The position numbers were made by a program, and so were the translations under genes. Positions 7,524-59,342 of a stretch of 64,000 nucleotides of DNA are shown here, piece after piece. Origin of the DNA: Polyangiaceae bacterium (GTDB lineage Bacteria > Myxococcota_A > Polyangia > Polyangiales > Polyangiaceae); contig JANXOF010000037.1 of NCBI GenBank assembly GCA_025353725.1, positions 124,001 through 188,000 on the forward strand, in the 5' to 3' direction. Position 1 is the first letter of the stretch, and every line of letters begins with the position of its first letter. Below the pieces are notes generated by a model. That model searched no databases. It had not been told where the DNA came from and saw nothing but the letters and a program-made list of their open reading frames with translations.

Positions 7524-7525
7524 TC

Positions 7526-11881: not shown

Positions 11882-11890
11882 GGCACAGAG

Positions 11891-12358: not shown

Positions 12359-12365
12359 GTCCACG

Positions 12366-13346
12366 ATGACGCCTCTCTTCGAACACACCTTGCGCGCGCC
12401 ACGGCATTTTCGGCTCCGTCCGATTGTATGCCGTATAGCTCCGCGACGTGTTCAAAGCTCCGGCGGCGCCCGTTCCACCGCTTCGTTTATTCTGGTCGCA
12501 GCGTTCACGCTCTTCTTCGGGCTCTCGCCTCGCACGGCAAAGGCTCAGGTGGCCGGTATGCCGCCCGAGCTGGTCCATGTTGGAGTCCGCGAGCACCTCG
12601 ACGGTCCGCTCCCCCTTGAAACTCCGTTTCGCGACCACACCGGCAAGGCCGTCAAGCTCGGCGATTTCTTCGACGGCAAGCGGCCTGTCGTCCTGACCTT
12701 CGCCTACCACTCATGCCCCGTGCTTTGCAGCATGGTCCTCAATGCGACCGCGAGTGGGCTGCGCGGGATCGGTTGGAACGTTGGCAAAGAGTTTGAGGTC
12801 GTCACAATCAGCATCGACCCCGAAGAATCCTTGGAGAAGACCGCTATCAAGCGCGCTTCGATCCTCTCGGAGTACGGAGCCTCTCGAGGTCACGACGGGA
12901 CTGGTTGGCACTTTCTCGTCGGTGGCAAGGCAGCCATTGCGAGCGTCGCGGCGGCCGCAGGGTTCGAGTACCAATACGACGCTGACCAGAAACAATGGGG
13001 TCATCCGTCCGTTCTGATGATCGCCAAGCCCGATGGCCACATGGCGCGCTATCTGTACGGCCTCGAATTCTTGTCGAACGACTTGAAGCTCGGGTTGCTC
13101 GAGGCGTCCGCGGGGCGCAGCATTTCGACGTTGGAGCAGCTGATCCTGTACTGCTACCACTACGATCCCAAAGGCGGAAAGTACGTCCTCGTGGCTCAGC
13201 GCGTCATGCAAGTGGGTGGCGGAGCAGTGGCTCTCGTGTTGTTTGGATTTCTTGGCCTTTTTTGGGGGCGCGAGTTCCGCAAAAGTAGGCGGGGTTCAGC
13301 CTCGGGCGATCGCTCGAGCCCTGTGCCCCGCGATGTGACCGTGTGA
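12366..13346 (+). CDS. SCO1/SenC-family copper chaperone for oxidase CuA assembly
   Basis: 326 residues. Thioredoxin-like SCO fold with the copper motif CPVLC (Cys 117 and 121) and the distal His in HPSVL near residue 213. SCO proteins deliver copper to the CuA site of oxidase subunit II, which is encoded immediately downstream. An N-terminal hydrophobic segment (about 40-60) and a C-terminal hydrophobic helix (about 283-303) suggest double anchoring; the second helix is seen in SCO-like proteins of caa3 and ACIII clusters. Start at ATG 12366 is preferred because the upstream in-frame extension overlaps the preceding gene. Confidence 0.93.
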   Translation: MTPLFEHTLRAPRHFRLRPIVCRIAPRRVQSSGGARSTASFILVAAFTLFFGLSPRTAKAQVAGMPPELVHVGVREHLDGPLPLETPFRDHTGKAVKLGDFFDGKRPVVLTFAYHSCPVLCSMVLNATASGLRGIGWNVGKEFEVVTISIDPEESLEKTAIKRASILSEYGASRGHDGTGWHFLVGGKAAIASVAAAAGFEYQYDADQKQWGHPSVLMIAKPDGHMARYLYGLEFLSNDLKLGLLEASAGRSISTLEQLILYCYHYDPKGGKYVLVAQRVMQVGGGAVALVLFGFLGLFWGREFRKSRRGSASGDRSSPVPRDVTV

Positions 13347-13356
13347 GGAGGCTTCA

Positions 13357-14343
13357 GTGACGTACCGCATGTTGGCGACAGAACCACAAGCGTCGAGCTG
13401 GCAGTTGCCGCCGGCGATGTCCGATACGGCGCCGCCCGTCGACAATACCTACAACTTCATTTTTTGGTTCTCCGTCGCGTTCACCGTCGTCATTACGGCG
13501 CTAACGCTGTACTTCGTCGTGAAGTACCGGCGTCGACCAGGCGTGAGGTCGGAGCCTACGGGTCACTTCAATCGCCTCGAGATCTTCTGGACGGTTACGC
13601 CGACGATCTTTATCGGCATTCTCTTTCACGTTGGCTTTAGTTCATGGATCAAGAACGCGACGGCGGCCGAAGGCGCGACCGAGATCCGAGTTCGAGGCAA
13701 GAAGTGGGTGTGGGAGTTCGAATACCCGACGGGTGACCGAGTTCCGAGCGAGCTCGTTCTCGAGAAGGGGCGCGCGTACAAGATGATCATCTCGTCCGAA
13801 GACGTTCTTCACTCGTTCTTCATCCCTGAGTTTCGTCTCAAGCGCGACGCGGTGCCTGGACAGTACTCGTTCATTGCCTTCACTCCGACCGTCACGGGCG
13901 CGGCGCATGTTTTTTGCGCCGAATACTGCGGGACGAACCATTCCGGGATGGGTGCGACCGTGAAAGTGCTCGAGCCGAACGAGTACCAAGAGTGGGCGAA
14001 GGGACTCGGGAAGTGCGTCGGCACGCCTGAAGAGTGCGTCCCTGAGCGTTACGGCGAGTCGCTCTTCGCGAAGAATGCGTGCACGACGTGTCACGGTGTG
14101 GGCGGTACGGGGATGGTCGGCGGTTCCAAGGGAGTCGGTCCGAAGCTTGCCGGGATCTACAACACCATGCAGCCGCTTATGTCGGGCGGTCCGGTGATGG
14201 CGGACGAGAACTACATTCGCGAGTCGATTCTCCGACCGAACGCGAAAATCGTGCAGGGCTACGCGAACGTCCAGATGCCGGCCTTCGTCCTCAAAGACGA
14301 CCAGCTCGACGCGATCATCGCCTACCTAAAGTCGTTGAAGTAA
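13357..14343 (+). CDS. ctaC: Cytochrome c oxidase subunit II, caa3 type (CuA plus fused cytochrome c)
   Basis: 328 residues. Two N-terminal hydrophobic helices (about 29-50 and 71-88), the cupredoxin domain with the CuA ligands in CAEYCGTNHSGM (Cys 187 and 191, plus His and Met), then a fused cytochrome c domain with CTTCH at about 242-246 and a Met in VQMPAF. The fusion defines caa3-type oxidases, and it accepts electrons directly from ACIII or a small c cytochrome. GTG start at 13357 is supported by GAGGAGG six bases upstream; ATG 13369 is an alternative. No cleavable signal is evident. Confidence 0.95.
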   Translation: MTYRMLATEPQASSWQLPPAMSDTAPPVDNTYNFIFWFSVAFTVVITALTLYFVVKYRRRPGVRSEPTGHFNRLEIFWTVTPTIFIGILFHVGFSSWIKNATAAEGATEIRVRGKKWVWEFEYPTGDRVPSELVLEKGRAYKMIISSEDVLHSFFIPEFRLKRDAVPGQYSFIAFTPTVTGAAHVFCAEYCGTNHSGMGATVKVLEPNEYQEWAKGLGKCVGTPEECVPERYGESLFAKNACTTCHGVGGTGMVGGSKGVGPKLAGIYNTMQPLMSGGPVMADENYIRESILRPNAKIVQGYANVQMPAFVLKDDQLDAIIAYLKSLK

Positions 14344-14358
14344 GGACCCAGGAAGACC

Positions 14359-16092
14359 ATGGCAGCAATCACGACATCGCCGGCGCACCACGAAGAGGTC
14401 GACCCGAACGCGAGTTACCTGGAGGCCTCGAAGGGGATCGGCAACTGGCTGGTTACCGTCGATCACAAGCGCATCGGGGTAATGTACCTCATCGCCGTGA
14501 CGATCGCGTTCGCCCTCGGTGGCGTATTCGCGCTTCTCGTGCGCGCGGAGCTCTTTACGAAGGGCCGCACGATTATGGATGCGGACACCTACAACCGGAT
14601 GTTCTCGCTCCACGGTGTCGTGATGGTGTTCCTTTTCATCATCCCGTCGATACCGGCCGCAATGGGCAATATTATTCTGCCGATTCAACTCGGCACGAAA
14701 GACGTTGCTTTCCCAAAGCTCAACTTATTGAGTCTTTACGTTTACGTCTTCGGTGCGTGCTTCGGTATCTACTCGATGATTAACGGCGGTGTCGACACGG
14801 GTTGGACATTCTACACGCCCTACTCGTCGAGCGATCCGGCGCACGGCGGCGTGGGGTCTCCGTCGGCCGTGCTCCCGATGACTCTTGCAGCCTTTATTAT
14901 GGGGTTTTCATCGATCTTAACCGGTGTGAACTTTATCGCTACCATCCACAAGATGCGGGCGCCGGGCCTAACGTGGCGTCGCCTGACGCTGTTCACGTGG
15001 GCACTCTACGCCACCTCGATTATCCAAGTTCTTGCCACGCCGGTGCTCGCGATAACCCTCCTCCTTCTCACGATGGAGCGTTTTTTAGGGCTCGGTATCT
15101 TTGACCCGCGCCTCGGCGGAGACCCCGTGCTCTTCCAGCACTTCTTCTGGTTTTACTCGCATCCCGCCGTCTACATTATGATTGTGCCGGCCATGGGCGT
15201 GGTGAGCGAGATTATCGCGACCTTCTCGCGACGCGAGCCCGTTGGCTACATGGCCATTGCAGCGAGTTCGCTCGGCCTCGCGCTCCTCGGGTTTCTCGTG
15301 TGGGGCCACCACCTTTTCGTGGCGGGCATGAGCGAGTACGCCACGATGGTGTTCAGCGCGCTCACGTTCCTCGTGGCGATTCCGAGCGGCGTGAAAATCT
15401 TCAACTGGGTCGCGACCCTCTATAAGGGGTCGATTTCTCTCCAGTCGCCAATGCTCTGGGCGCTCTCGTTCTTATTTCTTTTCACGATCGGCGGTCTGAC
15501 CGGACTCTTCCTCGGAATGCTCGCGGTCGACGTTCACCTTCACGACACGTACTTCGTCGTCGCTCACTTCCACTACGTCATGGTCGGCGGGACCGTCATG
15601 GGGTTTGTCGGCGGTCTTCACTACTGGTGGCCCAAGTTTACAGGCAAGCTCTACGACGAAAAGTGGGCGCGCTTCGGTTGGTTCTTTGTCTTCGTTGGCT
15701 TCAACGTGACGTTCCTCACACAGTTCGTGCTCGGTTCGCGGGGCATGCCGCGCCGCTACTACGACTATCTTCCGCAGTTTCAACAACTCCACCAGATATC
15801 GACGATGGGCTCGTGGGTCTTAGGCTTCGGATTCCTCGTGCTGGGCACGATGTTCGTGCGGTCGCTTATCGGGGGAAAGCCTGCACCTCGTAACCCCTGG
15901 GGTTCGGCTGCTCTCGAATGGATGACGCCCACGCCGCCTCCGCTTTACAACTTTGTGAAAGACCCCGTTCTAACGCGAGGTCAGTATGACTACCACCTTG
16001 CGACGGATGACGAACTCTATGAGGGGTACGACGACCCTCTCTTTCCCAAACGAATGTCCAAAGAGTCGCGCGAGGCGAAGGCCCGATCATGA
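14359..16092 (+). CDS. ctaD: Cytochrome c oxidase subunit I
   Basis: 577-residue heme-copper oxidase catalytic subunit with about twelve helices, binding heme a and the heme a3-CuB centre. Visible signatures: [10 protein letters not shown] (low-spin heme His), [17 protein letters not shown] (CuB His and cross-linked Tyr), [10 protein letters not shown] (two CuB His) and [14 protein letters not shown] (heme His pair). The YSHP form in helix VI, without the Glu of GHPEVY, marks an A2-type proton pathway. Ribosome site AGGAAG precedes ATG 14359. The stop overlaps the next subunit by four bases. Confidence 0.97.
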
Positions 16093-16826
16093 GCCGCGAA
16101 GCTGTGACCGCAGCCCACGTCGATAGCTCACCTCCGCACGCTGGCCACGGTGCGCACGCCGACGCGGCGCATCACGGCCCGGTTTGGCTGGCGCACCACT
16201 TCGATACGCCCGCACAGCAGTTCGACACCGCGAAAATAGGGATGTGGGTCTTCCTAGCGCAGGAGCTGCTGTTCTTCAGCGGACTCTTTGTCGCCTACGG
16301 CGTCTACCGAAGTTGGTACCCCGAGATGTTCATCGCGGCGTCCCGGCAGCTGAACAAAGAGATGGGAGCGACGAACACCGTCGTACTTCTCTTCTCGTCA
16401 CTCACGGTTGCACTTGCGGTCCGCTATTCGCAGGTCGGCAACCGAAAGATGACGGGGAGACTCATTCTCACCACCATCGGTTGCGCGTGCATGTTTCTTG
16501 TCATCAAGTTTTTTGAGTACAAGCACAAGTTCGAGGGCGGACTGCTTCCAGGGCGTTTCTACCATCCGCATCTTGAGCACTTGGTCCACGGGTCGCCTCC
16601 GCTCCCTGACAACACGGGCTCATTCTTTTCGATTTACTTCATGATGACCGGCGTGCACGGTATCCACGTGCTCATCGGTATCGGTGTGCTCATTTGGGTC
16701 TGGATCCGGAACAACCGCGGTGAGTTCTCAAAGGAGTACTTCACGCCAGTCGACATCGTTGCGCTTTACTGGCACCTCGTCGACCTTGTGTGGATTTACC
16801 TCTTCCCTCTGCTCTATCTGATTTGA
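16089..16826 (+). CDS. ctaE: Cytochrome c oxidase subunit III
   Basis: 245 residues, six to seven helices, with the subunit III signatures [38 protein letters not shown] and [18 protein letters not shown]. The first 35 residues form a His-rich, helix-free N-terminal tail (about eight His). Translation starts within the ctaD stop codon (ATGA). It stabilises subunit I and its proton uptake. Confidence 0.95.
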
Positions 16827-16836
16827 GGCGCCCGCG

Positions 16837-17313
16837 ATGAGCACTGCACAACACGGACATGGTTTGAGTCACGATGACGGCGCTGTCCACGCCCACGTTT
16901 CGTCGGTTCCTTTTTATATCGCGGTCTTCCTCGGCTTACTCTTTCTTACGGGAATGACCGTTGGTCAGTCGTATGTCGACCTCGGGAAAGCGAACATCGT
17001 TTTGGTTGTCGTCATCGCGACGATGAAGGCTTCGCTTGTTGCGACGTTCTTCATGCACTTGCGTTGGGACGATAAGTTCAATGTCCTCATCTTCATCGGG
17101 AGCTTGCTGTTTATCGGCGTGTTTTTCGCCTACACGCTCAAAGACACGGACCGTCGCGGCGAACGTGACCCAGACCAAAACGTCCACGTGTGGGAAAAGA
17201 CGGGCGAAGCCGCCCCGGGCGGAATGCCAAAGAAGGAGCATGCCGCCCCAGCGAGCGAGTCCGGTGGATCAGCGCTGCCAGGCGCGGCCGGGATGACACT
17301 CCCGCAGCACTAG
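16837..17313 (+). CDS. ctaF: Cytochrome c oxidase subunit IV-like protein
   Basis: 158 residues. Three hydrophobic segments (about 25-45, 50-70 and 80-98) with ATFFMHLRWDDKFN between the second and third, typical of prokaryotic subunit IV (CyoD/CtaF-like family). The N-terminal tail is His-rich (HGHGLSHDDGAVHAH). The C-terminal 60 residues are hydrophilic and Ala/Gly/Pro-rich. It is the last gene of the respiratory block and converges on the WecG-like gene with only five bases between stops. Confidence 0.88.
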   Translation: MSTAQHGHGLSHDDGAVHAHVSSVPFYIAVFLGLLFLTGMTVGQSYVDLGKANIVLVVVIATMKASLVATFFMHLRWDDKFNVLIFIGSLLFIGVFFAYTLKDTDRRGERDPDQNVHVWEKTGEAAPGGMPKKEHAAPASESGGSALPGAAGMTLPQH

Positions 17314-46400: not shown

Positions 46401-47489
46401 TCACAACAGGTCGGTGCGGCCTGAGGCTCGGAGAGCCTCGACGACGAGGCGAACGTCTTGCGAACGCTCGCGAGGAAGGATGAGAATCGCATCTTCGGTC
46501 TCGACTACGACGAGGTCGCTCACGCCGACAAGCGCTACGACCTTTTTCCCTTTTCCCGACGTACGAACCAAGTTGCGCTTCGCGTCGATGGCCACGCTCC
46601 CGACCGCGAGCGTGTTGCCCGAGCTGTCCTGCGCACCGAGCTCCCATGCCGACTGCCAGCTGCCGACGTCGTTCCAGCCGAAGTCGCCGGGAACTACCGC
46701 GAGGCCTTCGGCTTTCTCCATCACTCCGTGGTCGATGGACACGCTTGGCAGAGTGGGAAAGATTCGCCGTACAGTTTCGGCTTCCGTCCCGTTTCGAGCC
46801 GCCTCGTCGATCGTTGTGATGCCCTCCGACAACGCGGGCAGGTGATCCTTCACGAGCTGCGCCATGTCGCTCGCGCGGAAGAAAAACATTCCTGCATTCC
46901 ACAGGTGTTTTCCGCTGCGATAAAAGCCTTCAGCACCCGCCCGATCAGGCTTTTCGACGAAGCGAACGACACGCTTCGCGTGACCTGCGGTGTCGCCGAG
47001 AGCCTCACCGACTTCGATGTAGCCGTAGCCTGTTTCCGGGCGCGTGGGCACGATTCCGACCGTGGTTACGCGTCCGCTCGAAGCCGTTTCGATGGCCCGT
47101 TCCAGGACGCGTCGAAACTCTCCTTCGTCCGTGATGAAGTGGTCGCTGGGGAGCACCATGACCCGTGCTTCCGGGTCGAGCCGCGCGACGGTTGCGGTTG
47201 CCCATGCAATGCACGGGGCCGTGTTGCGCGGTGCTGGCTCACTTAGAATGTGTGATCGCGGTACGCCAGGCACGGCGTTCGCCGTGGCTTCGGCTAAGTG
47301 CTCGCCGGTGACCACCACGATGCGGTCTGCGGGAACGAGCGGAGCAAGTCTTCGAACGGTCGCAGCCAAGAGGCTCTCTTCGCCGTCGCCCGCGAGGGGC
47401 AAGAGTTGCTTGGGGCGTAGCAAGCGGGAGGCCGGCCAAAACCTCGTGCCTGCGCCTCCTGCCATGATGACCGCGTAAACGTTCGACAT
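46401..47489 (-). CDS. manC: Mannose-1-phosphate guanylyltransferase (GMP type)
   Basis: 362 residues of nucleotidyltransferase only; the isomerase domain of bifunctional ManC is absent. The signature GGAGTRFWPASR begins near residue 11, followed by RPKQLLPL, a metal-binding LPSDHFI, GYGYIEVGEAL, VRFVEKPDRAGA and WNAGMFFF. It makes GDP-mannose for polysaccharides, matching the two glycosyltransferases at 17-19 kb. ATG 47489 is preferred; the frame is open to ATG 47501. It converges on the CarH-like gene with an 18-base gap. Confidence 0.93.
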   Translation of the reverse strand: MSNVYAVIMAGGAGTRFWPASRLLRPKQLLPLAGDGEESLLAATVRRLAPLVPADRIVVVTGEHLAEATANAVPGVPRSHILSEPAPRNTAPCIAWATATVARLDPEARVMVLPSDHFITDEGEFRRVLERAIETASSGRVTTVGIVPTRPETGYGYIEVGEALGDTAGHAKRVVRFVEKPDRAGAEGFYRSGKHLWNAGMFFFRASDMAQLVKDHLPALSEGITTIDEAARNGTEAETVRRIFPTLPSVSIDHGVMEKAEGLAVVPGDFGWNDVGSWQSAWELGAQDSSGNTLAVGSVAIDAKRNLVRTSGKGKKVVALVGVSDLVVVETEDAILILPRERSQDVRLVVEALRASGRTDLL

Positions 47490-47662
47490 CGGCACGAGCA
47501 TCGCACAAAAAAGGCTGAAAAGTCGCGCGCGAGAGGTGTCCTCCCCTATATCCCTCGGACTGCGTGCTTTCGGCCAACTCCACCCCCTCCGCTAGTCTCA
47601 ACTCTGGCCCTCGCCCTGGGGCCAGCTTGCGCTTTTGGCCGTTGGGAAACGGACTGCGCGCC

Positions 47663-49504
47663 GTGCGCGTGACGAAGATTCTCCTGGCGCGACTAGTCGC
47701 GTGCGTAGGTCTCTTGGCCGTAGTGGTTCTGTCGTCTGTCGGATGCGAAAGTGCGGAGGCGCCGTCACTCATCGAAGTCAGAGGGGTTTCGCCGCGCGAG
47801 ATCGAGGTGGGTGACCGAGTGGAGCTCCGAGGCTCTGGATTTCCCCAAGGCCGCGCCGCACGCGTCACGTTTCGCGGTGCTCTTTCTCACCCGGGTCAGC
47901 CTACGGCCGGCGGCGTGACTATTGAGGTTGAGGGACTTGTCGTCAGCGGGGATCTCATTGAATTCGTTGTGGGTCAGTCGCTCGTCGAGGAGTTTTGCGG
48001 GCGTGACGATCGCGCGACGCACGGCACGCTTTTCGGCGAGGTCGAGGTAGCGTTCGCTTCGCGTTCACCGGCCGCACCACCGATCAGCGGCGTGATGCAC
48101 GGCCTTAATCTCGACGTGACCCCCTCGTCGGTCCGCGCGGCCGTTCTGGAGTCCCGGCGTGCTGAAGCGGCTCGAGTAATCGCGTTTTTAGGAGTCACGC
48201 CGGGTGCCGTGTCGTCGCGCGGCCTGCCGATCGAAGCTCTCGTTTCGGGTTCGCCCGGTGAACGGGCAGGGTTCCGAGTCGGAGACGTCATCCGCCGCGT
48301 CGATGGTGTCCGCGTGCGCGAAACGTCCGACGTCGCGCCAGCTTCTTCCCGAAGCGCGCAGTTTACTCTCGTCCGGGCGAGCGCGGGCAACGAGGAGACG
48401 CTCACGGTAGCGATGCTCGGGTACGCGGGCGAGCGCATCCCGGTGGAGTACGGCGCGGCATTCCTTGTCGTGGGACTCGCGCTTGCCGCACTCCTCATCC
48501 TCGTTGTTCCCTCACCGACGCCGGCCACGGCGCTCGAAGTTCGCCTCGCGCGCTGGTTGCGCGTGGGGGGACTCGCGCGCTCGGCGCGGACGTTTTTCGG
48601 TCGCGGCCCACGAGCGTTGGGGTTTGCCCTCGCGTCCAGTCTCATCGGCACGTTTGCGCTCGGTCCCCAGGTTGTCAGTGCGGATTTCGACGGCGCAGTG
48701 CTCCTCGTCGCCTCCCTCGGGCTGCTCTTCGCGTCGCAGGCCTCATCGGCCACGAATACCGCGCGTAACCTATCGTACTCAGTCCGCGCTCTCGTGTGGG
48801 TGGATGTAACGTTTGCGGGCGTCGTGCTTGCGGCATCACTTGGGGGGATCGTCGTACACGGTGGCGCCTTCCGGCTCGCGGAGATCGTACGATCGCAGGG
48901 GGGCGCGCCTTGGGAGTTTGCGGCGTTCCGCGAGCCCTCCGCGTGCGTGCTTGCGTTCGCTTATCTCGGCGCGCTTTTCGTTTTTCTTCGTGCACGCGAA
49001 AGCGGCTCCCTCGCGGACGATTCTTGGGACGCCGGCGTGGTGGGATCGGAGACGCCACCGCTTACGCGGCCGGAGGAACTAACTCGTGGGCTTGAACGAA
49101 TGGGCCTGCTGCTGGCTTCGGCGCTAGGCGTCGTTGCGTTTTTTGGCGGCTGGCAGCTCCCGGGGGCCGTCGAGCCGCGCTCGCTGGCCCTACACCTGGC
49201 TTCCGCGTTGGTGTTCGTGGCCAAAACATGGGCACTTGCCGCCGGCGTTTTGGGAGCCTCGTCGCTCGCACCAAAGTGGAGCGCTCGGGAGGCACGAACG
49301 TTTTTGATTCGCCGCCTTCTCAGTGCGCTCGGTCTTGGGGCGTGCCTCATCGCAATCTCGCGAACGCTTGCGCCTAGCGAAGCGCTCGAGCGAGTGGTCG
49401 GTATGACGGTGATGACAGCGTGCATTCTCTTCGTGTTACGGGCGATAGTGCGAATTCGCACGGCCATCCGACGGCCGGAGCTTCACGCAAGCCCGTTCCT
49501 TTGA
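47663..49504 (+). CDS. Divergent NuoH-like membrane protein with IPT and PDZ domains
   Basis: 613 residues from GTG 47663 (GTG 47564 and 47669 are alternatives). A lipoprotein-like signal ends in SSVGC. Then comes an IPT/TIG-like Ig fold (about 30-145; IEVRGVSPREIEVGDRVELRG), a PDZ domain (about 169-253; LVSGSPGERAGFRVGDVIRRVDG), and eight or so helices resembling complex I subunit H. NuoH-like blocks are GGAPWEFAAFREPSACVLAF and ERMGLLLASALGVVAFFGGW, then FVAKTWALAAGVL. The NuoH acidic quinone loop (APFD-PEAE) is replaced by an unrelated stretch. First of three complex-I-like genes. Confidence 0.72.
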   Translation: MRVTKILLARLVACVGLLAVVVLSSVGCESAEAPSLIEVRGVSPREIEVGDRVELRGSGFPQGRAARVTFRGALSHPGQPTAGGVTIEVEGLVVSGDLIEFVVGQSLVEEFCGRDDRATHGTLFGEVEVAFASRSPAAPPISGVMHGLNLDVTPSSVRAAVLESRRAEAARVIAFLGVTPGAVSSRGLPIEALVSGSPGERAGFRVGDVIRRVDGVRVRETSDVAPASSRSAQFTLVRASAGNEETLTVAMLGYAGERIPVEYGAAFLVVGLALAALLILVVPSPTPATALEVRLARWLRVGGLARSARTFFGRGPRALGFALASSLIGTFALGPQVVSADFDGAVLLVASLGLLFASQASSATNTARNLSYSVRALVWVDVTFAGVVLAASLGGIVVHGGAFRLAEIVRSQGGAPWEFAAFREPSACVLAFAYLGALFVFLRARESGSLADDSWDAGVVGSETPPLTRPEELTRGLERMGLLLASALGVVAFFGGWQLPGAVEPRSLALHLASALVFVAKTWALAAGVLGASSLAPKWSAREARTFLIRRLLSALGLGACLIAISRTLAPSEALERVVGMTVMTACILFVLRAIVRIRTAIRRPELHASPFL

Positions 49505-49573
49505 AGCGCTTCGAGTTTGCCCCGGTCGCGGCATTGCTTGTCGCTCGTCTCGCGATTTCTGTAGCCTGACGCG

Positions 49574-51751
49574 ATGGTGGAGACCGCGGGCATGCTCACG
49601 ATCGTCGAGCCGAGCTCGTCACTCGTGGGGCTCGTCGTTCTGCCACTCGCTTGGGCGGCTCTCGCCGCCGTCGCGGTCCTTCGAGCCAAGGGAAGCTTAG
49701 CCGCCGTTCGCGTCACTCGTATTAACCTGTTCGCTGTTTTAGCGGCCGGTGGAACGTTAGGCCTTTCCGTCTTCCACTTGGTGCGCGCGGCGCAAAGGAC
49801 GACGGACCATGTTGCTACGCAACATCTGGCGCAACTCGCGCGGCTCGGCCAGCTTGACCTCTCTATCGACTTGGAGCGGACGCGACTGACGGCCACGTGT
49901 GCGTTCCTTGTTGCGCTTCTTGCCTTTGCAGCGGTGCTTCAAGCGCTGTTCCGCCGCGACCTCGGTGTCCTTGTTCAGCTCGGATGGACCGGGCTCGCGG
50001 CGAGTGCGGCGTTCCTCGTGGTGCTTTCCGCAGATCTGGCGTCCGTTGCCTTGGGACTGCCGCTCGTGACGCTCGCTTCGTGGGGGCTTGCGCGGGGCGG
50101 CCTCGGCGCCGTTGGTCGTCCGTCTGCGGTCGCCTTAGCCCTCGCAGGAAACGTGGCCGTGGTCTTTGGCGCCTGGGTGCTTTTCTGGTCGCTTGGCGGC
50201 GCCTTTAGCCCTTCGGGCTACATGCCGGATCCCCATCCTCGTTTCGCCTTGGTCGAGGTACCTAGCGTGGTTCGCGCCGAGGGGACGTCGACGGTGTCTC
50301 TCACCACGTACGTAGGCGCGATGGTGAGCTCCGACGAAGGGCCGCCGCTTCCTGGCGAACCTCTTTTGTCGCCCTTTACGCTTACGCTCCCGCCGGGGAC
50401 GTATTCGTTTCAAATCGAAGCCGGTGCGGCGACAGCCGACATCGTGGTCTCGCGCGTGACGCTCGCCGCGGGTCGCAGTTACGTCCTCGCACCGTACGGA
50501 TCGACGACGAGTTTTCGCGTTCTCGCCGATCAATTCGCCGTTCCAACACAAGCGCCTTCAGGCTCCAACGCGCTCTTTGCGCCTAGCGCATTGGCGTCGC
50601 GAAGGCTCGCTGGCATCGCTGTTCTGACGTGGGTAGTTGGCCTGTTCGTGCTCGCGATGCTCCTCCGTCTCGCGACCGTCGTCACGAGCGAAGGCCGAGG
50701 CATCGGGTTTGCCATCGACGCGATCCCGCTGCTGCTCGTCGTCATGCGCCTGGCGCCACTTCTGACGCACGACGCCGCCGCCGTACTCGCGATTTTGCCG
50801 GCGTGTGCCGCTGTGGCGTTCGCTGCCCGTGCGGCCTCCTCCCGGTCCGCGATGCGCGTGCCGCGCTCGGTACTCGCGGCCCTCGTCGCCGTGGCGGGTA
50901 TGTCGACGCTTCTTGGTGACGCGTCAGGCGCCCTGTCTCTTTTAGTACCGTCGACGCTCGGGGCGGTGGCTGCGGCGGCTGCCCTCGAAGCTGAAGTCGA
51001 AGCAAGGTGGCTCGGTTTAACGTGTGTGGCGGTGGCGGGGATCCTTCCGGGCGTTGGCGCATCCTTCGGTCTCGCCTCGGCGGCGGCGAGCACGTTCGGC
51101 GTGAGCGCGTCAGGACAACGTTGGGGGTGGGTCCTCGCGCCCCTCTTGACCAGCGTGGTGCTTCTCGACGCGCTCGGGTTGTTTCGCATGTATGATGCAA
51201 ATATTCGTTCTCGTTCGACGGTGGTAGCGCCGCGTGGGGCGCGGTGGTTGGTCGGCACGCTTGCCGTGGCCACGGCGCTCGTCGGATCGGTTCTCGGTGG
51301 CGGTACGTCCACGTTTGGCGGGCGCTTCGTTCCCGTCGCCCGTCGACTTGTCGGAGGGGGTGGAGCCTCCTATGAAGGGCCGCAACTCGCGGCAGCCGGC
51401 CTTGCATTTACCGTGGCGGCCGCAGCGCTGGGACTTGCTTGCGCGCGGCGAGCTTCACGAACGCAGGCTATTCCTGAGTGGGTCGCCGCGCTTGGCGCGC
51501 TCGGTCGTCGGGGAACTCGCGGCCTTGAGGTTAGCGAGTCGCTTCTGCGCTTCTTTGCGCGCTCGGTGGTGATTATGAACGACGATGTCATCGACGACGT
51601 TAGCGATTTTGTCGGTGGCGCCTTCCATCGCTTTCGCGGGCGCGGCCTTCACGGTCCGAGCGCGGCTGAAGCACGGGCAAAATTGATTTTTTTGTGGCTG
51701 ATGGTCACGCTTGCGGGAGCGATTGTTGGCTCGTCGCTGGTCCGCGGCTGA
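49574..51751 (+). CDS. Divergent NuoL-like antiporter-fold protein with periplasmic insert
   Basis: 725 residues, about 14 helices. NuoL resemblance is visible in LSADLASVALGLPLVTLASW (NuoL helix 5, with the essential Glu replaced by Pro), VVMRLAPLLTHDAAAVLAI (helix 8 region) and a C-terminal VVIMNDDVIDDVSDFVGGA like the NuoL tail. Between helices 6 and 7 (about 209-335) a soluble beta-rich domain is inserted (LPPGTYSFQIEAG, AAGRSYVLAPYG); in NuoL this loop is periplasmic. The lysines of the half-channels were not found. Lies 69 bases after the NuoH-like gene and 2 bases before the NuoM-like gene. Confidence 0.68.
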   Translation: MVETAGMLTIVEPSSSLVGLVVLPLAWAALAAVAVLRAKGSLAAVRVTRINLFAVLAAGGTLGLSVFHLVRAAQRTTDHVATQHLAQLARLGQLDLSIDLERTRLTATCAFLVALLAFAAVLQALFRRDLGVLVQLGWTGLAASAAFLVVLSADLASVALGLPLVTLASWGLARGGLGAVGRPSAVALALAGNVAVVFGAWVLFWSLGGAFSPSGYMPDPHPRFALVEVPSVVRAEGTSTVSLTTYVGAMVSSDEGPPLPGEPLLSPFTLTLPPGTYSFQIEAGAATADIVVSRVTLAAGRSYVLAPYGSTTSFRVLADQFAVPTQAPSGSNALFAPSALASRRLAGIAVLTWVVGLFVLAMLLRLATVVTSEGRGIGFAIDAIPLLLVVMRLAPLLTHDAAAVLAILPACAAVAFAARAASSRSAMRVPRSVLAALVAVAGMSTLLGDASGALSLLVPSTLGAVAAAAALEAEVEARWLGLTCVAVAGILPGVGASFGLASAAASTFGVSASGQRWGWVLAPLLTSVVLLDALGLFRMYDANIRSRSTVVAPRGARWLVGTLAVATALVGSVLGGGTSTFGGRFVPVARRLVGGGGASYEGPQLAAAGLAFTVAAAALGLACARRASRTQAIPEWVAALGALGRRGTRGLEVSESLLRFFARSVVIMNDDVIDDVSDFVGGAFHRFRGRGLHGPSAAEARAKLIFLWLMVTLAGAIVGSSLVRG

Positions 51752-51753
51752 GC

Positions 51754-53901
51754 ATGACACGCGCGTTTTATTTCAACGTTGCCTCGGGCGCCTCCCGGTC
51801 ATCCTTCTTCGGAAGGGGCGTCTTGCGCCTTTTGTTCGCGTTGGCATTAGCGTTCACGAGTCTGACTCTCTGTCTCTGCGTCATGACTCGTTCGGCAAAC
51901 GCAGAGAGTTTGCGCCGCGTCGGCCTGGTTCGATTGGAGGCGCCCTCCCACGGACCGCTTCACCTGATTCCTGGCGTTGGGGGGTTTAGCGCTGAGTTCT
52001 CGATTGCAAATGACGGAGCGGAGCCGCTCATCGTGTCACGTATCGCGGCGTTGGACCCGCGCGCGCCACCGAAGCTTATCGCCCGACTCGTCGACGGAGA
52101 ATTACCTGCAACGATAGCTCCGGGAGCCAAACGCAAGGCGCTGGTTCGGTGGGTACCGGAGACGGGTGTACGGGTTCGCCAGCTCTTCACGCACGTCATC
52201 GTCACGACGTCGGACGAGGAGACGGGAGAAGTCGCGATAGGCGTCCGCGCCCAGCTTCCTGGGCCGCTTGGTCCGCTCGAAGGACGCGTCGTGTCCTTGC
52301 TCGTTGGCATACCGCTGGTCGGGGCACTTCTGACACTGCTGCTCCGCGCGTTGGGCCGACGTGACGACCGAGGATCGCGCCTCGTCGCCGTGACCGCGCT
52401 AGCTATCCAACTCGCCCTCGCGTTGTACGCGTACGCACGCTTTGTCGCGGAGGTCTCGCGATTGGACGGCAATGACGGACTCCAATTCATCGAGCACAGT
52501 CTGTGGATCCGCGCGATCGCGGCCGAAGTGTTTTTCGGCGTAGACGGCACGGCCGTGGGGCCGCTCGTCGCGATAAGTATGGTTGCTTTTCTCGCAATGC
52601 TCCGGGAGCGCCGCTCCACGAGTTCGCAGCCTGAGTACTACGCGGCGTACCTCACCCTCGCGGCGGCCGTGCCCGGTGCTCTGTGCGCGATGGACGGCCT
52701 TTTGTTCGTGCTCTTCACGGCCGTTGCCGCCTTCACCGCCACGCTGCTGGTCAGTCACGAAGGACAGCGCGAACCACGAGCCCGGTCGTTGACGCTCGCC
52801 TTCGTTGCAGGGCTCGCTGTCGTGCTCCTTTCTTGCGCGGTTACCGTCATGTCTCGTTCGTCCGAGGGAGCTTTTTTGGTCGACGGAACGAAAGTATCCA
52901 CAACGTTTAATCTTCCCGAGCTTTCGCGCTTAGCGCTTGGCGCAAGCGCGACGAAGCTCGTTGGGATTCCGGTCGTCAAGCTCGCCTTCGGTTGCGTCCT
53001 GGTCGCGAGCGCCTCGCTGCTCGGCGCCTTTCCCTTTCACTCGTCGCGGGTGGCCGTGCTTTATGAAGCTCCCGCGGCTGTTCGAGTGCTCGTATCCGCC
53101 GCACTACCCACGCTTGGTGTATGCGCTCTCGTTCGATTGGGTTGTAACGCGTTGCCCGAAGGCATGCGTTGGGCATCGGGTGTCGTCGTCGCGCTAGGCG
53201 CGGTCACCGCTGTCTACGGCGCTCTCACGGCATTCGGCCAGACGGATCTCCATCGACTCGCGGCGTCCGCAACGACCGTTCAAGTCGGTTTCGTCTTGGT
53301 CGGCATCGGGTCGCTCACACCGCAAGGTCTGGCGGGTGCGCTCGTGCTCACGACGACACGCGTTTTGACAGGCTCGTTACTTCTCTTACTTGTCGGTATT
53401 GTTCACGATCGCGCGCAAACGAGTGACGTCGTGCGCCTCGCCGGTATCGCCACGCAGATGCGCCAGTGGGCCAGCGTCCTCGTCGTGGCGGCGTTCGGGC
53501 AAGCGGGCGTCATGGGCTTTGCCGGAGCGTGGGGCCCAGTGCTCGCAGTGCTGGGTGCACTTCCGAACTATCCACCGCTTGCTGTCGTCGCCGCTCTCGG
53601 GCTAGTTCTCATCGCCACCTCCCATGTCGCGGCGCTGTCGAAGGTCGTTTTCGGTGACCTCTCCGTCGACTGGGAAACCAATGCACTCTTGGAGCCCTTC
53701 GGCGGGCGGTTCAGGGACCTCACGATGCGCGAGTGGGTGAGTGTTGGGCCGGTCGCACTGACCGTCTTGGTTCTTGGGCTCTGGCCCACTCCGCTTTTCA
53801 CCGTGGTCGCGGGTACCGTGAGTGATCTCACGAACGCACTAAGCCCTCCGGGGACGGAGCAAATTTCCCGACTCGACGGCTTCGGCTTACGCGAGGACTA
53901 A
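51754..53901 (+). CDS. Divergent NuoM-like antiporter-fold protein with N-terminal soluble domain
   Basis: 715 residues. A signal-like N-terminus (about 25-48) is followed by an extracytoplasmic Ig-like domain (about 50-180; FSIANDGAEPLIVSRIAALD, resembling CARDB/ASH folds), then about 14 helices. NuoM-like blocks: FFGVDGTAVGPLVAISM, EYYAAYLTLAAAVPGALCAM, FPFHSSRVAVLYEAPAAVRV and TDLHRLAASATTVQVGFVL. The NuoM helix-5 Glu, helix-7 Lys and helix-8 Lys are replaced (F-T-A, Leu, Thr by eye). ATG 51754 follows the NuoL-like stop by two bases. Confidence 0.7.
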   Translation: MTRAFYFNVASGASRSSFFGRGVLRLLFALALAFTSLTLCLCVMTRSANAESLRRVGLVRLEAPSHGPLHLIPGVGGFSAEFSIANDGAEPLIVSRIAALDPRAPPKLIARLVDGELPATIAPGAKRKALVRWVPETGVRVRQLFTHVIVTTSDEETGEVAIGVRAQLPGPLGPLEGRVVSLLVGIPLVGALLTLLLRALGRRDDRGSRLVAVTALAIQLALALYAYARFVAEVSRLDGNDGLQFIEHSLWIRAIAAEVFFGVDGTAVGPLVAISMVAFLAMLRERRSTSSQPEYYAAYLTLAAAVPGALCAMDGLLFVLFTAVAAFTATLLVSHEGQREPRARSLTLAFVAGLAVVLLSCAVTVMSRSSEGAFLVDGTKVSTTFNLPELSRLALGASATKLVGIPVVKLAFGCVLVASASLLGAFPFHSSRVAVLYEAPAAVRVLVSAALPTLGVCALVRLGCNALPEGMRWASGVVVALGAVTAVYGALTAFGQTDLHRLAASATTVQVGFVLVGIGSLTPQGLAGALVLTTTRVLTGSLLLLLVGIVHDRAQTSDVVRLAGIATQMRQWASVLVVAAFGQAGVMGFAGAWGPVLAVLGALPNYPPLAVVAALGLVLIATSHVAALSKVVFGDLSVDWETNALLEPFGGRFRDLTMREWVSVGPVALTVLVLGLWPTPLFTVVAGTVSDLTNALSPPGTEQISRLDGFGLRED

Positions 53902-54762: not shown

Positions 54763-55707
54763 CTATTCTTTGAGAGCTTCAGCTCCGCCGATAATTTCCA
54801 TCAGCTCCTTCGTAATCGCGGCCTGGCGAGCGCGGTTGTAGACGAGCGTAAGTCGGCCAATCATATCTTTCGCGTTTCGCGTCGCTGCGTCCATCGCGGT
54901 CATCCGCGCGCCATATTCGCTCGCCTGGCTCTCAAGCAGAGCGCGGTAGATCGAAATTTCGATATACATCGGCATGAGACGTTCGAGCACCACGCGCTCG
55001 TTCGGCTCGAATGCATATTCGGTCGGTCTGATCCCCGCGGTCGGAGCGCTCTGATTCGAGTCACGCGCGGCTTGCTCTGGCCGTTGCTCTGGCAGCGGCA
55101 AAAGCGCTTCGGTAACGATTTCCTGGGTAATCGCGCTCTTGAACTCGTTATAGACTACGTAGACGCTGTCAACTTCGCCAGTGACGAACTTCTCTGTCAC
55201 CCATTCGGCAACAGCCCGCGCCTTGGTTAGGTCCAATCCCTCGAAGAGCTTCGGAAAATCGCGCGTAATGGTTACGTTGCGGCGGGAAAGGTAATCACGA
55301 CCTTTTTTTCCTATCGTCGCGACAAGCACTTCGGCGCCAGCCTCCTTCTTGTCTCGCCACATAGCGAGGGCAGCCTTGCCCGCGTTCGCATTGAACGCTC
55401 CGGCCAGCCCTCGGTCACCCGAGAGAACGAGCACCAGCACGTTTTGCTCGGGACGCCGCTCGAGAAGGGGGTGCACTCGCTCAGCAGTGTCGCTGGCGCT
55501 GTACTCCTTGTCGGTTTGCGTCGCCCGCATCCCCGCGGCGACGCCACCGAGAATCTCATGGGTCTTCAAGACGTACGGACGAAGCGCAGTAATCCGCTGC
55601 TGCGCTCGGTTGAGGCGTGCACCCGCCACCATTTTCATCGCGCGCGTGATTTTTTGCGTCGCTTTGACGCTTGTAATCCGCTTTCGAATCGTCTTGAGCG
55701 AAGCCAT
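54763..55707 (-). CDS. atpG: F-type ATP synthase gamma subunit
   Basis: 314 residues, the central rotor shaft of F1. The N-terminal helix (ASLKTIRKRITSVKATQKITRAMKMVAGARL) and the C-terminal helix (TAMDAATRNAKDMIGRLTLVYNRARQAAITKELMEIIGGAEAL) are canonical, shown here in short parts. It is about 25 residues longer than most, because of a Gln/Pro/Ser-rich insert near 205-230 (RPEQAARDSNQSAPTAG). It is the last ATP synthase gene of this cluster: the beta and epsilon genes that normally follow are absent. Confidence 0.96.
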   Translation of the reverse strand: MASLKTIRKRITSVKATQKITRAMKMVAGARLNRAQQRITALRPYVLKTHEILGGVAAGMRATQTDKEYSASDTAERVHPLLERRPEQNVLVLVLSGDRGLAGAFNANAGKAALAMWRDKKEAGAEVLVATIGKKGRDYLSRRNVTITRDFPKLFEGLDLTKARAVAEWVTEKFVTGEVDSVYVVYNEFKSAITQEIVTEALLPLPEQRPEQAARDSNQSAPTAGIRPTEYAFEPNERVVLERLMPMYIEISIYRALLESQASEYGARMTAMDAATRNAKDMIGRLTLVYNRARQAAITKELMEIIGGAEALKE

Positions 55708-55718
55708 GGAAGTCCTGC

Positions 55719-57377
55719 TTAGCCCTTCTTGGTATCTTTGGCGAACGCCTTGCCAAAGGCGCCAAGCGCCTTCTTGAGCGTCTCCTCAGTATCCTTGTCG
55801 AGCGCCTTCTTGGTGCGAATCGTCTCGAAAATCTGGGGGTGCTCTTGCTCGATGAACGAGTAAAGCTGGCGCTCGTACTCTGCAAGCTTCGACACCTCGA
55901 CGGTATCAAGGTGACCCTTGGTGCCCGCGTAAATGATCACCACCTGCTTTTCGACCGACTGCGGAACGTACTGACCCTGTTTGAGGATTTCGACGAGGCG
56001 CGCGCCGCGATCGAGCATGTTGCGCGTAACTTGGTCGAGATCCGATGCGAACTGACTGAAGGCGGCTTTCTCCCGGTACTGCGCGAGGTCCAGCTTGAGT
56101 GAGCCAGCGACGCCCTTCATCGCCTTGATCTGAGCGCTCCCGCCTACGCGACTTACGGATATACCGACGTTGATGGCCGGACGGACGCCAGAGTAAAACA
56201 GGTCGGCCTCGAGAAAAATTTGGCCGTCCGTAATCGAGATTACGTTCGTCGGGATGTAGGCCGACACGTCTCCGGCTTGCGTCTCGATAATCGGTAGCGC
56301 AGTGAGCGACCCACCGGAGAGCGGGTCCTTCACGATTTCATAGCCGGCGCCCTTGGCTTTCAGCTCTTCTTCGGCGGATTCATGGCCCTGCTCACCGACA
56401 TGAACTTTCGCGTCGCCATGCTTGTCGAAAGCGGTGCCTTTTGGCAAGACCGCCAGTCGGTCGGCCATTTTCGCAGCTCGCTCGAGAAGACGGGAGTGAA
56501 TGTAAAAAACGTCACCCGGGTAGGCCTCGCGCCCTGGCGGTCGTCGGAGCAGAAGCGAGAGTTGGCGATACGCGACCGCCTGCTTAGAAAGGTCGTCATA
56601 GACGCAGAGAGCGTGGCGTCCGGTGTCACGGAAGTACTCTGCCATCGTGACGCCCGTGTAGGGAGCGATGAACTGGAGCGGCGCCGACTCACTCGCTCCG
56701 GAAACGACGACGGTCGTGTATTCCATCGCTCCGTTTTGGGTCAGCTTGTCGACAACAGCCGCGACCGTTGATTGCTTCTGTCCGATAGCGACGTAAAAGC
56801 AAAAGACGCCTAGACCCTTCTGATTAATAATCGTGTCGATGGCCACGGCGGTTTTACCCGTCTGCCTATCGCCGATGATGAGCTCGCGCTGACCCCGCCC
56901 GATCGGCACCATCGCGTCGATGGCTTTGATCCCCGTCTGGAGTGGCTCTTTAACGGGCTGCCGTGCAAGAATCCCTGGGGCCTTGATCTCAACCCGCCTC
57001 TTATGCGGCGTCTCGATCGGGCCTTTACCGTCGACCGGAATGCCAAGAGCATTGACGACGCGACCGATGGCGGCCTCACCGACAGGCACCTCCATGATTC
57101 GATTTGTGCGCTTGACTGTCGCGCCTTCCTTGATGCCGGTCGACTCTCCGAAAAGGACCGCACCCACGTTGTCCGCCTCGAGATTGAGGACGAGACCCAT
57201 GATGCCTCCCGGAAACTCGATAAGTTCGCCTGCCATGGCGCCCTCGAGGCCGTAAATGCGCGCAATGCCGTCTCCAACGCTGAGTACGGTGCCCGTCTCG
57301 GTCGTGAGCGCAGCCTTCTCGTAGTTTTGGATCTGCTTCTTGATGATCGACGAGATTTCTTCGGCGCGGAGTTGCAT
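55719..57377 (-). CDS. atpA: F-type ATP synthase alpha subunit with large insert
   Basis: 552 residues against about 505 usually. P-loop GDRQTGKT at 169-176, and the signature [17 protein letters not shown] at about 400-416. The extra length lies in one place: residues about 307-353, between [13 protein letters not shown] and [13 protein letters not shown], a Lys/Glu/Gly-rich hydrophilic insert ([20 protein letters not shown]). The surrounding sequence is fully conserved, so it is a real surface insertion close to the catalytic interface. Followed by atpG after 11 bases; 107 bases separate it from atpH upstream. Confidence 0.97.
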
Positions 57378-57484
57378 GAGCGATCTTCTTTCAGGGAGTC
57401 GAAACGAACCGGATCGAGACGAAAAAACGTTGGGTACTTTAGTTACTCAGTGACGCCGTCTGCAATGCAGACTGCGTCTCAGTC
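57378..57484. other. atpH-atpA gap with palindrome and hexamer repeats
   Basis: 107 bases inside the operon, unusual for these otherwise overlapping genes. It holds a perfect palindrome GTCTGCA-A-TGCAGAC (57458-57472), which folds as a GTCTG/CAGAC hairpin. Next to it lie about three copies of a GTCTCA hexamer (to about 57490), the last ones entering the atpH 3' end. It may be an RNA processing or attenuation site between delta and alpha. Confidence 0.5.
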
Positions 57485-58027
57485 TCAGTCTGGCAACAGC
57501 GTCTCTTTGAGTTGATTGAGGCGAGCCGTCAATGTGCCGTCGTAGATGGTGTCGCCGATGCGGATGAGTACGCCGCAAACAAGTGACGGCACGACCTTGC
57601 GGTCGAGGGCCACCGAACGTCCCGTAATCCGCGAAAGCTCGCTTTGAAGCTGCTCGAAGAACGCGTCGGGCAGGGGCATGGCAGTCGACACTTCAGCGCG
57701 CGTGATGCCACGCTTCAGATCGGCCATCTCGCTGAGCCTTGCTGCGACGGCGGGTAGTGCCCGAATACGTCGGCGATCCACGAGGATCCCGAGAAAGCTT
57801 CGCGCCGTCACGTGCAGACCGAGGAGCTCACTCACATCGGCCACGATTTGCTTTTTCGCGACTAAGGGGAGAAGCGGGTTCTCGAAAGCACCCCGGAGTT
57901 CCTCGTTCGACTCGTATGCCTCGGACGCTCGACTTACCTCGTCGACCAGTTCGTTGAGCTGCCCACTTTCGCTCCCCAGCTCGAGAAGCGCGTTCGCGTA
58001 CCGTCGTGCGATGACGCCCGGAATCAC
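57485..58027 (-). CDS. atpH: F-type ATP synthase delta subunit
   Basis: 180 residues, the peripheral-stalk cap of F1 (OSCP homologue). It has the N-terminal helical domain (ARRYANALLELGSESGQL) and the C-terminal segment with VVPSLVCGVLIRIGDTIYDGTLTARLNQLK. Start overlaps the atpF stop by four bases. Confidence 0.95.
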   Translation of the reverse strand: MIPGVIARRYANALLELGSESGQLNELVDEVSRASEAYESNEELRGAFENPLLPLVAKKQIVADVSELLGLHVTARSFLGILVDRRRIRALPAVAARLSEMADLKRGITRAEVSTAMPLPDAFFEQLQSELSRITGRSVALDRKVVPSLVCGVLIRIGDTIYDGTLTARLNQLKETLLPD

Positions 58028-58845
58028 GAGACACTCCCCGCGGTGGGAACCACCAAGCGCGCGCCGGACCCGGTCGTTTTCGCGCTCGGTTTTCGCGAAA
58101 GCTCGCCGAGGAGATCCTGGGCGAGGCGGGCGTGGTCTTCCGCCGTCACCGAAGCACGTAGAATCCGAGAAGCCTCCTCGACAGAAAGTCCAACAGTCTC
58201 CACAAGTAGCTCCACGCGCAGCTGCTTCCGCTCCTGCTCAACGAGTCGTTCCGCGTCCCGCTTCAGCCGCTCGGCACGTTCGCGGGCTTCCGATAGCAAG
58301 TGCTCGACCTCGCCCTTCGCCGCCGTCACGAGAGCGCCCTTCGCCGTGGCGGCGTCCGCCTCCACATTCTTGAGGTCGGCTTGATACTTTTTCGCGCGCT
58401 CTTTGGCCTCCGCGAGAAGGCTTTGTGCTTCGTCGATCTCTTTCCCAATCGTCACGCGCCGTTGCTTGAGCGCATTCACGACAGGGGCTTTGCCCAGGAT
58501 ATAATACAGGGTCATCAGGACCCCGAAGTTGATGGCAAGAGCGAGAATTGCGGGCCGCTGCTTGTCCCAAATATCTGTCCAGTTCAACGGCTTGAGGGCA
58601 TGGCTCTCGTGTTCCACCGCCTCGTGTTCCACCGGCGCGTGGGCTTCGGGGGAAGCGCTTTGAGAATCCGCGTTCTCGCGCGTGTCGACCGCGCCCGCAG
58701 ATGCAGCTCGGTCATGAGCCCGCCTCGCTCCGTGATCCTGCGCGAACACGCCACGTGAAACGAACAGGAAAGCGGTACAGATCAGCAGAGCCGCCAGCCC
58801 GGCCCGCACGCTTCGTCGAGCCGCAACCAAATGTACGAGGCTCAC
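58024..58845 (-). CDS. atpF: F-type ATP synthase b subunit with N-terminal extension
   Basis: 273 residues, longer than the usual 160. A cleavable-looking signal helix (about 14-35) is followed by a periplasmic His/Glu-rich stretch (EAHAPVEHEAVEHESHA, about 68-84), then the membrane helix (about 98-118, ILALAINFGVLMTLYYILG) and the dimerising coiled coil with Arg/Glu/Ala heptads. The b and b' pair forms the peripheral stalk. Start and stop overlap its neighbours by four bases each. Confidence 0.93.
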   Translation of the reverse strand: MSLVHLVAARRSVRAGLAALLICTAFLFVSRGVFAQDHGARRAHDRAASAGAVDTRENADSQSASPEAHAPVEHEAVEHESHALKPLNWTDIWDKQRPAILALAINFGVLMTLYYILGKAPVVNALKQRRVTIGKEIDEAQSLLAEAKERAKKYQADLKNVEADAATAKGALVTAAKGEVEHLLSEARERAERLKRDAERLVEQERKQLRVELLVETVGLSVEEASRILRASVTAEDHARLAQDLLGELSRKPSAKTTGSGARLVVPTAGSVS

Positions 58846-59342
58846 GACGTTACCTCCCGGCCCAGAACGCGTGACGCCATATCCCGCCCTAAAGCGCTCG
58901 CATCGTTCCGAAGCGAAGCGCGCGCCTCCCGGGCATCCTGGGTCGTGGCTTCGCGTCCCTGCTGAATCGTCTTCGCAACTTCCGACCGAACGAGCGTCAT
59001 GAGCTCCGCCTCGCGTTTTTGACCTTCTGCGCGAAGACGGTCTCGTTCCTGAGCTCCCTCGTCGCGAGCCTTCGTGAGGCTTGCCTCATAAGTAGCTAGC
59101 GCCTTCGCGGAGCGGCGGTCCTCCTTCTTGGCCTGATGTCGTGTACCCTCGATGCGCTTCTCGCGCTCTTCAAAGAGCCTCATCATCGGGTCGAAAAGGG
59201 CCGGCTTGAGGACAAGCAACAGCACGAGGAACAAGCCGAAATGAACGAAGAGGCTCGCGTCGAGGTCGACGTTTACCGCGCCCTCGCTTCGAAGGAGAAT
59301 TCCGGCGGAATCTGTTAGGGCGCTCACTCCGAGCAGTGACAT
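58842..59342 (-). CDS. atpF': F-type ATP synthase b' subunit
   Basis: 166 residues. One membrane helix (about 29-50, LFVHFGLFLVLLLVLKPALF) and a long charged coiled coil (REKRIEGTRHQAKKEDRRSA onward), matching the second b-type subunit of heterodimeric stalks. It is the first gene of the b'-b-delta-alpha-gamma operon; subunits a and c are not upstream of it. Confidence 0.92.
   Translation of the reverse strand: MSLLGVSALTDSAGILLRSEGAVNVDLDASLFVHFGLFLVLLLVLKPALFDPMMRLFEEREKRIEGTRHQAKKEDRRSAKALATYEASLTKARDEGAQERDRLRAEGQKREAELMTLVRSEVAKTIQQGREATTQDAREARASLRNDASALGRDMASRVLGREVTS

Follow-up and report, generated by a model that had tools for sequence, protein, structure and literature searches.

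A stretch of 64,000 nucleotides from a Polyangiaceae bacterium (the window; C13:124001-188000 of a 6.6 Mb genome) carries three adjacent plus-strand genes, here called genes 1, 2 and 3 or the trio, whose origin very probably lies in the membrane arm of a second respiratory complex I. The encoded proteins are degenerate relatives of the subunits NuoH, NuoL and NuoM, each equipped with a periplasmic domain, and they retain almost none of the scored quinone-site and proton-channel residues. Their present role is predicted, with modest confidence, to be that of a periplasmic scaffold. Subunits of the second complex I type are denoted by primes (NuoH', NuoL', NuoM'). The layout given in a first-pass annotation of the window, with genes 2 and 3 separated by 2 bases, was confirmed, and genes 1 and 2 are 69 bases apart. 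The features of the trio are as follows.

47663-49504, plus strand: gene 1, degenerate NuoH' with lipoprotein signal, periplasmic beta domain, PDZ domain and NuoH-like membrane domain (profiles, relatives, fold model)
47744-47746, plus strand: codon of the lipobox cysteine of gene 1, kept in 106 of 108 scored loci
47744-48106, plus strand: N-terminal beta domain of gene 1, with beta strands in the model and without a Pfam TIG match
48107-48511, plus strand: linker and PDZ domain of gene 1, with a PDZ_6 match at about 48230-48337
48512-49501, plus strand: NuoH-like membrane domain of gene 1 (fold matches; of the 13 catalytic positions scored none is retained, or 2 when aligned pairwise)
49574-51751, plus strand: gene 2, degenerate NuoL' (alignment with intact NuoL', fold matches, residue scoring)
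50207-50629, plus strand: insertion of gene 2 in the loop between transmembrane helices 6 and 7 (TM6-TM7), common to intact NuoL' and not scored in the main NuoL of the genome
51754-53901, plus strand: gene 3, degenerate NuoM' (Pfam and NCBIfam profiles, solved chains, residue scoring)
51754-52278, plus strand: signal peptide (by eye) and immunoglobulin-like (Ig-like) extension of gene 3, common to intact NuoM'

Genes were called with a simple codon-usage script and their start sites are approximate. The longest frame of gene 1 begins at 47564; the GTG codon at 47663 is the more plausible start because it yields a lipoprotein-type signal peptide (by eye). The gene 1 alignments in this analysis took 47642 as the start.

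The three proteins differ in how readily they are recognized. Gene 3 matches Proton_antipo_M (PF00361) with 82 bits against a cut-off of 21.5 and the NuoM profile TIGR01972 with 215 bits, under the cut-off of 263.8, and it is identified as a NuoM relative also by comparison with solved chains. Gene 1 scores 16.8 bits against NADHdh (PF00146), under the cut-off of 27, and gene 2 has no Pfam or NCBIfam match up to an expectation value (E) of 1; of the three complex I resemblances noted at first sight the profiles bear out that of gene 3. Gene 1 is regarded as NuoH-like because relatives with an intact NuoH domain share its N-terminal part, which in three of the 29 relatives first compared sits on a NuoH domain scoring 369-377 bits, and because of its fold: the AlphaFold2 model (mean predicted local distance difference test score, pLDDT, 86.1) matches NuoH/ND1 chains with a Foldseek E of 1.0e-5 and a VIA-align Z of 18.3 (root-mean-square deviation 3.9 over 223 residues). 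Gene 2 found nothing credible among PDB sequences, its single match (E 0.27) being unrelated. It is taken to be NuoL-like because it can be aligned with intact NuoL' proteins bearing the same insertion, and because its model, with a pLDDT of 63.5, matches NuoL chains at E 1.3e-11. The single models agree with the complex I resemblance of genes 1 and 2. The fold matches are not independent of the homology argument, because the input alignments of both predictions each include three intact relatives. The PDZ domain read from the sequence of gene 1 was recovered by profile (PDZ_6, 37 bits, over the cut-off). The IPT domain proposed next to it was not, since none of the 29 members matches TIG/IPT in Pfam up to E 0.1; the model does contain beta strands at this place.

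The possibility that the trio represents the main complex I genes of this genome was rejected, as the main NuoL, NuoM and NuoN lie on contig C57 and the main NuoH on C86. By profile the genome has one NuoD, located in the main cluster, one NuoK and one NuoJ; no second NuoD, NuoJ or NuoK and no spare NuoN were found in it that could serve the trio (NuoA, NuoB and NuoC were not counted). PF00361 matches five of its proteins: the main NuoL, NuoM and NuoN, gene 3, and one judged by eye to be DabB-like. These results uphold the initial proposal of a separate three-subunit module on the complex I fold, each member with a periplasmic domain, that is distinct from the main complex I. The main NuoL itself (L067, G000:C57, 10290-13106) is 938 amino acids (aa) long and has a C-terminal extension, and the main NuoL of genome G120 (848 aa) is also extended. 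The DabB-like gene (L069, G000:C1) adjoins a large gene, possibly DabA (by eye).

Intact counterparts of the trio proteins occur in members of the same family. Three genomes (G120, G163 and G196) contain a second complex I that is scattered over the genome as NuoH' alone, NuoL'-M'-N', NuoA'B'C'D' and NuoJ'K'. No C' was called in G196, which is the only one of the three with a NuoI-like gene beside JK'; copies of NuoE-G were not searched. In these intact sets the lipobox-beta-PDZ part is found on NuoH', the TM6-TM7 insertion in NuoL', and a signal with an Ig-like part on NuoM'. Profiles of the extra parts of NuoM' and NuoL' do not score on the listed control NuoL and NuoM proteins (main or undecorated). 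In subunits of the NuoH, NuoL and NuoM types the N-termini are on the periplasmic side, as is the TM6-TM7 loop of NuoL.

Gene 1 is present in 100 of the 108 family genomes. NuoD' (at least 58% identity) is found in 22 of these 108, the NuoD among the matches listed elsewhere reaching at most 47%, and NuoM' (at least 63%) likewise in 22, some copies being split or containing an in-frame stop. An intact second complex I is a feature of about a fifth of the family genomes. In G272, NuoD' and NuoM' are present and gene 1 was not found. A related complex I occurs in G253 (L264, L265), with a fused NuoC-D of 551 aa, in a genome that also holds a degenerate gene 1. In G253, NuoD' shares an operon with a NuoH (423 aa) that is undecorated, and 9 of 9 channel positions persist in a NuoM lacking the extension; this complex is accordingly considered a related complex I and not the partner of the degenerate gene 1. 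Yet another second complex I set, without periplasmic domains, was seen in G056, G115, G144 and G102 (L114, L115, L116 and L117).

The intact and degenerate forms are separated by their catalytic residues. Positions were chosen from motifs of the intact reference after some degenerate rows had been seen. For NuoH, 13 quinone-site and E-channel positions were scored in 108 loci, leaving out the fragment L246. The pooled set is without the copies L070 and L171-L175, and L258, a copy of L189, was left out of the NuoM and NuoL counts. The NuoL' and NuoM' sets comprise only open reading frames (ORFs) with the extra domain (score >15); they cover 11 of the 22 NuoD' genomes and do not include G253. 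All 13 NuoH positions are kept in 23 of 108 loci, and every other locus keeps at most 9. Window gene 1 keeps 0 of 13 in the large alignment and 2 of 13 pairwise, against 10 (the first three positions being gaps) and 13, respectively, for the main NuoH as control. Of nine channel Glu, Lys and His positions, gene 2 keeps none and gene 3 one, against nine of nine in both the main NuoL and the main NuoM. Across the family, 11 NuoM-type ORFs from NuoD' genomes keep 9/9 and the 26 others 0-6; the corresponding NuoL-type figures are 9/9 in 11 ORFs and 0-3 in 26. Intactness follows NuoD': of the 94 family genomes that were scored, 21 have NuoD', and 20 of these (all but G253) contain an intact NuoH', as do 3 of the 73 without NuoD'. 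These three are G245, which is 73% complete, and G312 and G313, which do have NuoM'.

The first-pass annotation had suggested that the trio might couple or sense ion gradients and transmit them to its periplasmic domains, and such conduction or sensing would now have to proceed by a remodelled path. The antiporter fold is kept, the genes are under purifying selection, Asp264 and Asp314 (D264, D314) of gene 3 are present in every degenerate NuoM-like ORF that has a residue there, and in NuoM charged residues overall are retained better than hydrophobic ones (47% against 35%). On the other side, the TM5 Glu and the TM7 Lys are lost in all 26 degenerate NuoM-like ORFs, and the TM8 Lys and TM12 Glu persist in one and four of them (E. 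coli numbering E144, K234, K265 and E407, taken from the alignment to 3rko_M). At columns invariant in the intact proteins, degenerate forms retain Lys in 15% (NuoM) and 5% (NuoL) of cases, compared with 68% and 42% for Gly, Pro and Trp. Together with the absence of a second NuoD, NuoJ, NuoK or NuoN, the residue counts leave ion coupling unsupported for the window copy, and an ion-based function is considered unlikely.

Descent from a complex I membrane arm is also reflected in the gene order of relatives. Used as sole query, gene 2 finds one relative besides itself in 235 genomes of the phylum, and the history was therefore traced via gene 1. In G267 (L189, 3-8785), gene 1 is followed on one strand by J-like (182 aa), K-like (111 aa), L'-like, M'-like and N-like genes, all divergent; M' keeps 6/9 and L' 1/9 of the channel positions, and the J assignment relies on a blastp match to NuoJ' of G120 (E 3e-7). 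The question raised at the outset, whether NuoN- and NuoK-like genes ever accompany the trio genes, is thereby answered in the affirmative for this one gene 1 locus of 109. The window trio corresponds to an H-J-K-L-M-N cluster of this kind from which J, K and N, none of which has a periplasmic domain, have been removed. In 20 of 109 loci, genes like gene 2 and/or gene 3 lie no more than four genes downstream of gene 1 on the same strand; the 23 intact loci all lack this link. In G302, G303 and G307 (L275, L256 and L257) the L'- and M'-like parts are fused in one ORF of 1276-1288 aa. Another ORF, L198 (1139 aa), scores for both the L' and the M' part, and L190 (1017 aa) for the M part only. Intact H' stands beside L'M'N' in 0 of 23 loci, an observation from which a secondary clustering of the trio was considered; this was set aside, since the G267 cluster makes loss more likely.

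If the trio were an accessory or assembly part of the main complex I, shared ancestry would fit and the contact surfaces would probably be shared as well. The main complex has its own NuoH, NuoL and NuoM, however, and no main nuo gene lies near gene 1 in any of the 109 loci, where the K- and N-like genes of G267 are the only nuo-like neighbours besides genes 2 and 3, so that this role appears rather improbable.

The trio is under purifying selection, as measured between two related genomes. Between the congeners G071 and G102 the ratio of nonsynonymous to synonymous substitution rates (dN/dS, NG86) is 0.20 for gene 1, 0.40 for gene 2 and 0.34 for gene 3, and 0.13-0.24 for five neighbour genes. 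The best kept part of gene 2 in this pair is the insertion, with 80% identity and a dN/dS of 0.22, against 70% and 54% identity for the membrane parts. From three intact proteins to five trio members, the identity of the NuoH membrane domain falls from 77% to 35%, and that of the lipobox-beta part of gene 1 is 48.5% and 48.0%; the membrane domain, by far the better conserved part in intact NuoH', has lost this lead in the trio members. Between the window and Labilithrix sp., periplasmic and membrane parts are 63% and 53% identical in gene 1, 61% and 44-52% in gene 2, and equal (61% and 60%) in gene 3. The periplasmic parts thus outlast the membrane parts in H' and L', and not in M'. That the genes are functionless, decaying leftovers might be suggested by the loss of catalytic residues, by the patchy distribution of genes 2 and 3 and by G267, where a whole cluster is decaying. 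Against this stand the long open frames across many genera, dN/dS values of 0.20-0.40 (gene 2 being the most relaxed), the lipobox cysteine kept in nearly all loci, and the full trio at the same locus in Labilithrix sp.; simple decay is judged improbable.

In a tree of the lipobox-PDZ part, whose root is not known, three degenerate clades are nested in a clade of intact rows, and if this tree is right, loss of the pump would have happened more than once. A reversed order, in which degenerate lipoprotein-PDZ proteins came first and one clade later swapped in real NuoH, NuoL and NuoM membrane parts, could draw on intact rows lying inside degenerate ones on that tree (rooted for drawing only) and on G253 with its undecorated NuoH beside a separate degenerate gene 1; it is highly improbable, as it needs replacement in three genes, intermediate forms exist, the three degenerate clades nest in the intact clade, and in five of five trio members the membrane part of gene 3 is nearer to NuoM' than to two main NuoM (that of L044 being even closer to a different NuoM encoded in the same genome).

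The favoured reading, descent of the trio from a second complex I followed by a scaffold role, can be put as a sequence of steps. The ancestor would have resembled the form in Sorangium-type relatives, with NuoA, B, C, D, H, J, K, L, M and N, of which H', L' and M' each had a periplasmic domain. The lineage of the window has lost the redox module, for which NuoD serves as marker, together with NuoJ, K and N; in H', L' and M' the quinone and proton-channel positions that were scored have been erased, and the three proteins bearing periplasmic domains have been retained as one gene cluster. The trio may now form a membrane-anchored periplasmic platform that performs neither redox chemistry nor ion pumping and in which the former complex I helices would provide the anchor and a surface for assembly. 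Tails of envelope proteins would be the ligands of the PDZ domain, and the beta domains would likewise bind envelope proteins.

Several observations weigh against this reading. At 66 of the 86 degenerate loci, some of which end at contig edges, neither gene 2 nor gene 3 is linked to gene 1, so that the three genes are not required as a unit at every locus. The low NuoH counts are partly due to alignment failure, because the control NuoH is also gapped at the first three positions. In NuoH, Lys, Glu and His are retained in 45% of cases against 32% for hydrophobic residues, which is no selective loss of charge, unlike the clear loss of Lys in NuoL and NuoM; the overall retention of charged residues in NuoM given above points the same way as in NuoH. 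The PDZ part of gene 1 also drops in identity, from 45% among intact proteins to 37% among trio members. The Ig-like part of gene 3 is no better preserved than its membrane part: dN/dS between G071 and G102 is 0.40 for the former against 0.32 for the latter, and among five trio members the two parts have 33% and 34% identity.

Comparison with known systems reveals partial likenesses. As in respiratory complex I, the intact relatives in G120, G163 and G196 have NuoA-D, NuoH and NuoJ-N-type subunits with the scored catalytic positions kept; unlike it, their NuoH', NuoL' and NuoM' carry periplasmic domains, and the window copy is devoid of the catalytic residues as well as of NuoD, J, K and N. 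Gene 3 shares homology with the large subunits of Mrp antiporters but lacks the channel lysines and glutamates, and Mrp antiporters are not known to have a NuoH. The DabA-DabB inorganic carbon pumps combine a NuoL-like protein with a non-redox partner, whereas the trio consists of two antiporter-like proteins and a NuoH-like one, with catalytic positions lost. No DabA was noted beside the trio, whose neighbours resemble manC and ATP synthase genes, no search with a DabA profile having been made. A NuoH- and NuoL/M-like membrane arm is also present in membrane-bound hydrogenases and formate hydrogenlyase, and a formate hydrogenlyase chain is among the fold matches of gene 2; the trio differs in that no hydrogenase subunit was noted at its locus (by eye). 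In agreement with the first impression that no described system matches, the open-access papers listed by the searches, which leave most subscription journals outside, yielded no NuoH with a PDZ domain, no myxobacterial second complex I with periplasmic domains and no catalytically dead complex I membrane arm. A survey of complex I with an incomplete category (PMC12361115) does not contain Myxococc- or Sorangium in its main text.

Judged from translations and by eye, the trio is flanked on one side by uvrB, a fasciclin-like gene, a MerR-type regulator and manC (the last also by Pfam) and on the other side by ATP synthase genes. The divergent neighbour of gene 1 is:

46401-47501, minus strand: manC (Pfam)

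It adjoins gene 1 in seven of the 29 loci first compared (the window and six of the 28 others) and is probably outside the module. The ATP synthase genes (54763-58027) adjoin the trio locus also in G036 and Labilithrix, and not in G089. A gene 1 profile made from 29 and then from 9 proteins was too divergent for a scan of named genomes; relatives of gene 1 in named genomes (five loci) belong to Labilithrix sp. isolate ACE_MYX8 (55% identity, best segment) and to Polyangiaceae and Myxococcales metagenome genomes. Genes for a sigma factor and a zinc-finger protein lie upstream of gene 1 in nine loci, three intact (L043, L047, L049) and six degenerate (L041, L042, L044, L045, L046, L050), and an ABC ATPase gene lies directly upstream in L043, L047 and L049 (intact) and L041, L042 and L046 (degenerate); these names are Pfam assignments from L041. 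That intact and degenerate gene 1 have upstream genes in common supports their shared descent. The upstream genes of L213 and L227 are alike by eye. Elsewhere in the window, two adjoining genes at the place of atpF (58024-59342) possibly represent a duplicated b subunit (by eye), and the gene order at 4119-17313 resembles an alternative complex III and cytochrome oxidase cluster (by eye, not searched).

If the scaffold reading is correct, these genomes would form a natural series that leads from a functioning complex I to a membrane scaffold, G267 and the genomes with fused L'-M' being intermediates. The series would reveal the residues that can be dispensed with after loss of the redox module. 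Annotation would label gene 3 and ORFs like it NADH-quinone oxidoreductase subunit M, a name that calls for caution, as they lack the residues needed for that role. The intact form would be a variant of complex I whose PDZ and beta domains are lipid-anchored in the periplasm; the papers searched do not describe such a variant, and it would be present in Sorangium, a cultured organism. There is about an even chance that one bacterial family has seen several conversions of complex I, each turning a redox-driven proton pump into a non-energetic membrane platform for periplasmic domains, the intact form having a periplasmic arm whose job would have outlived the pump.

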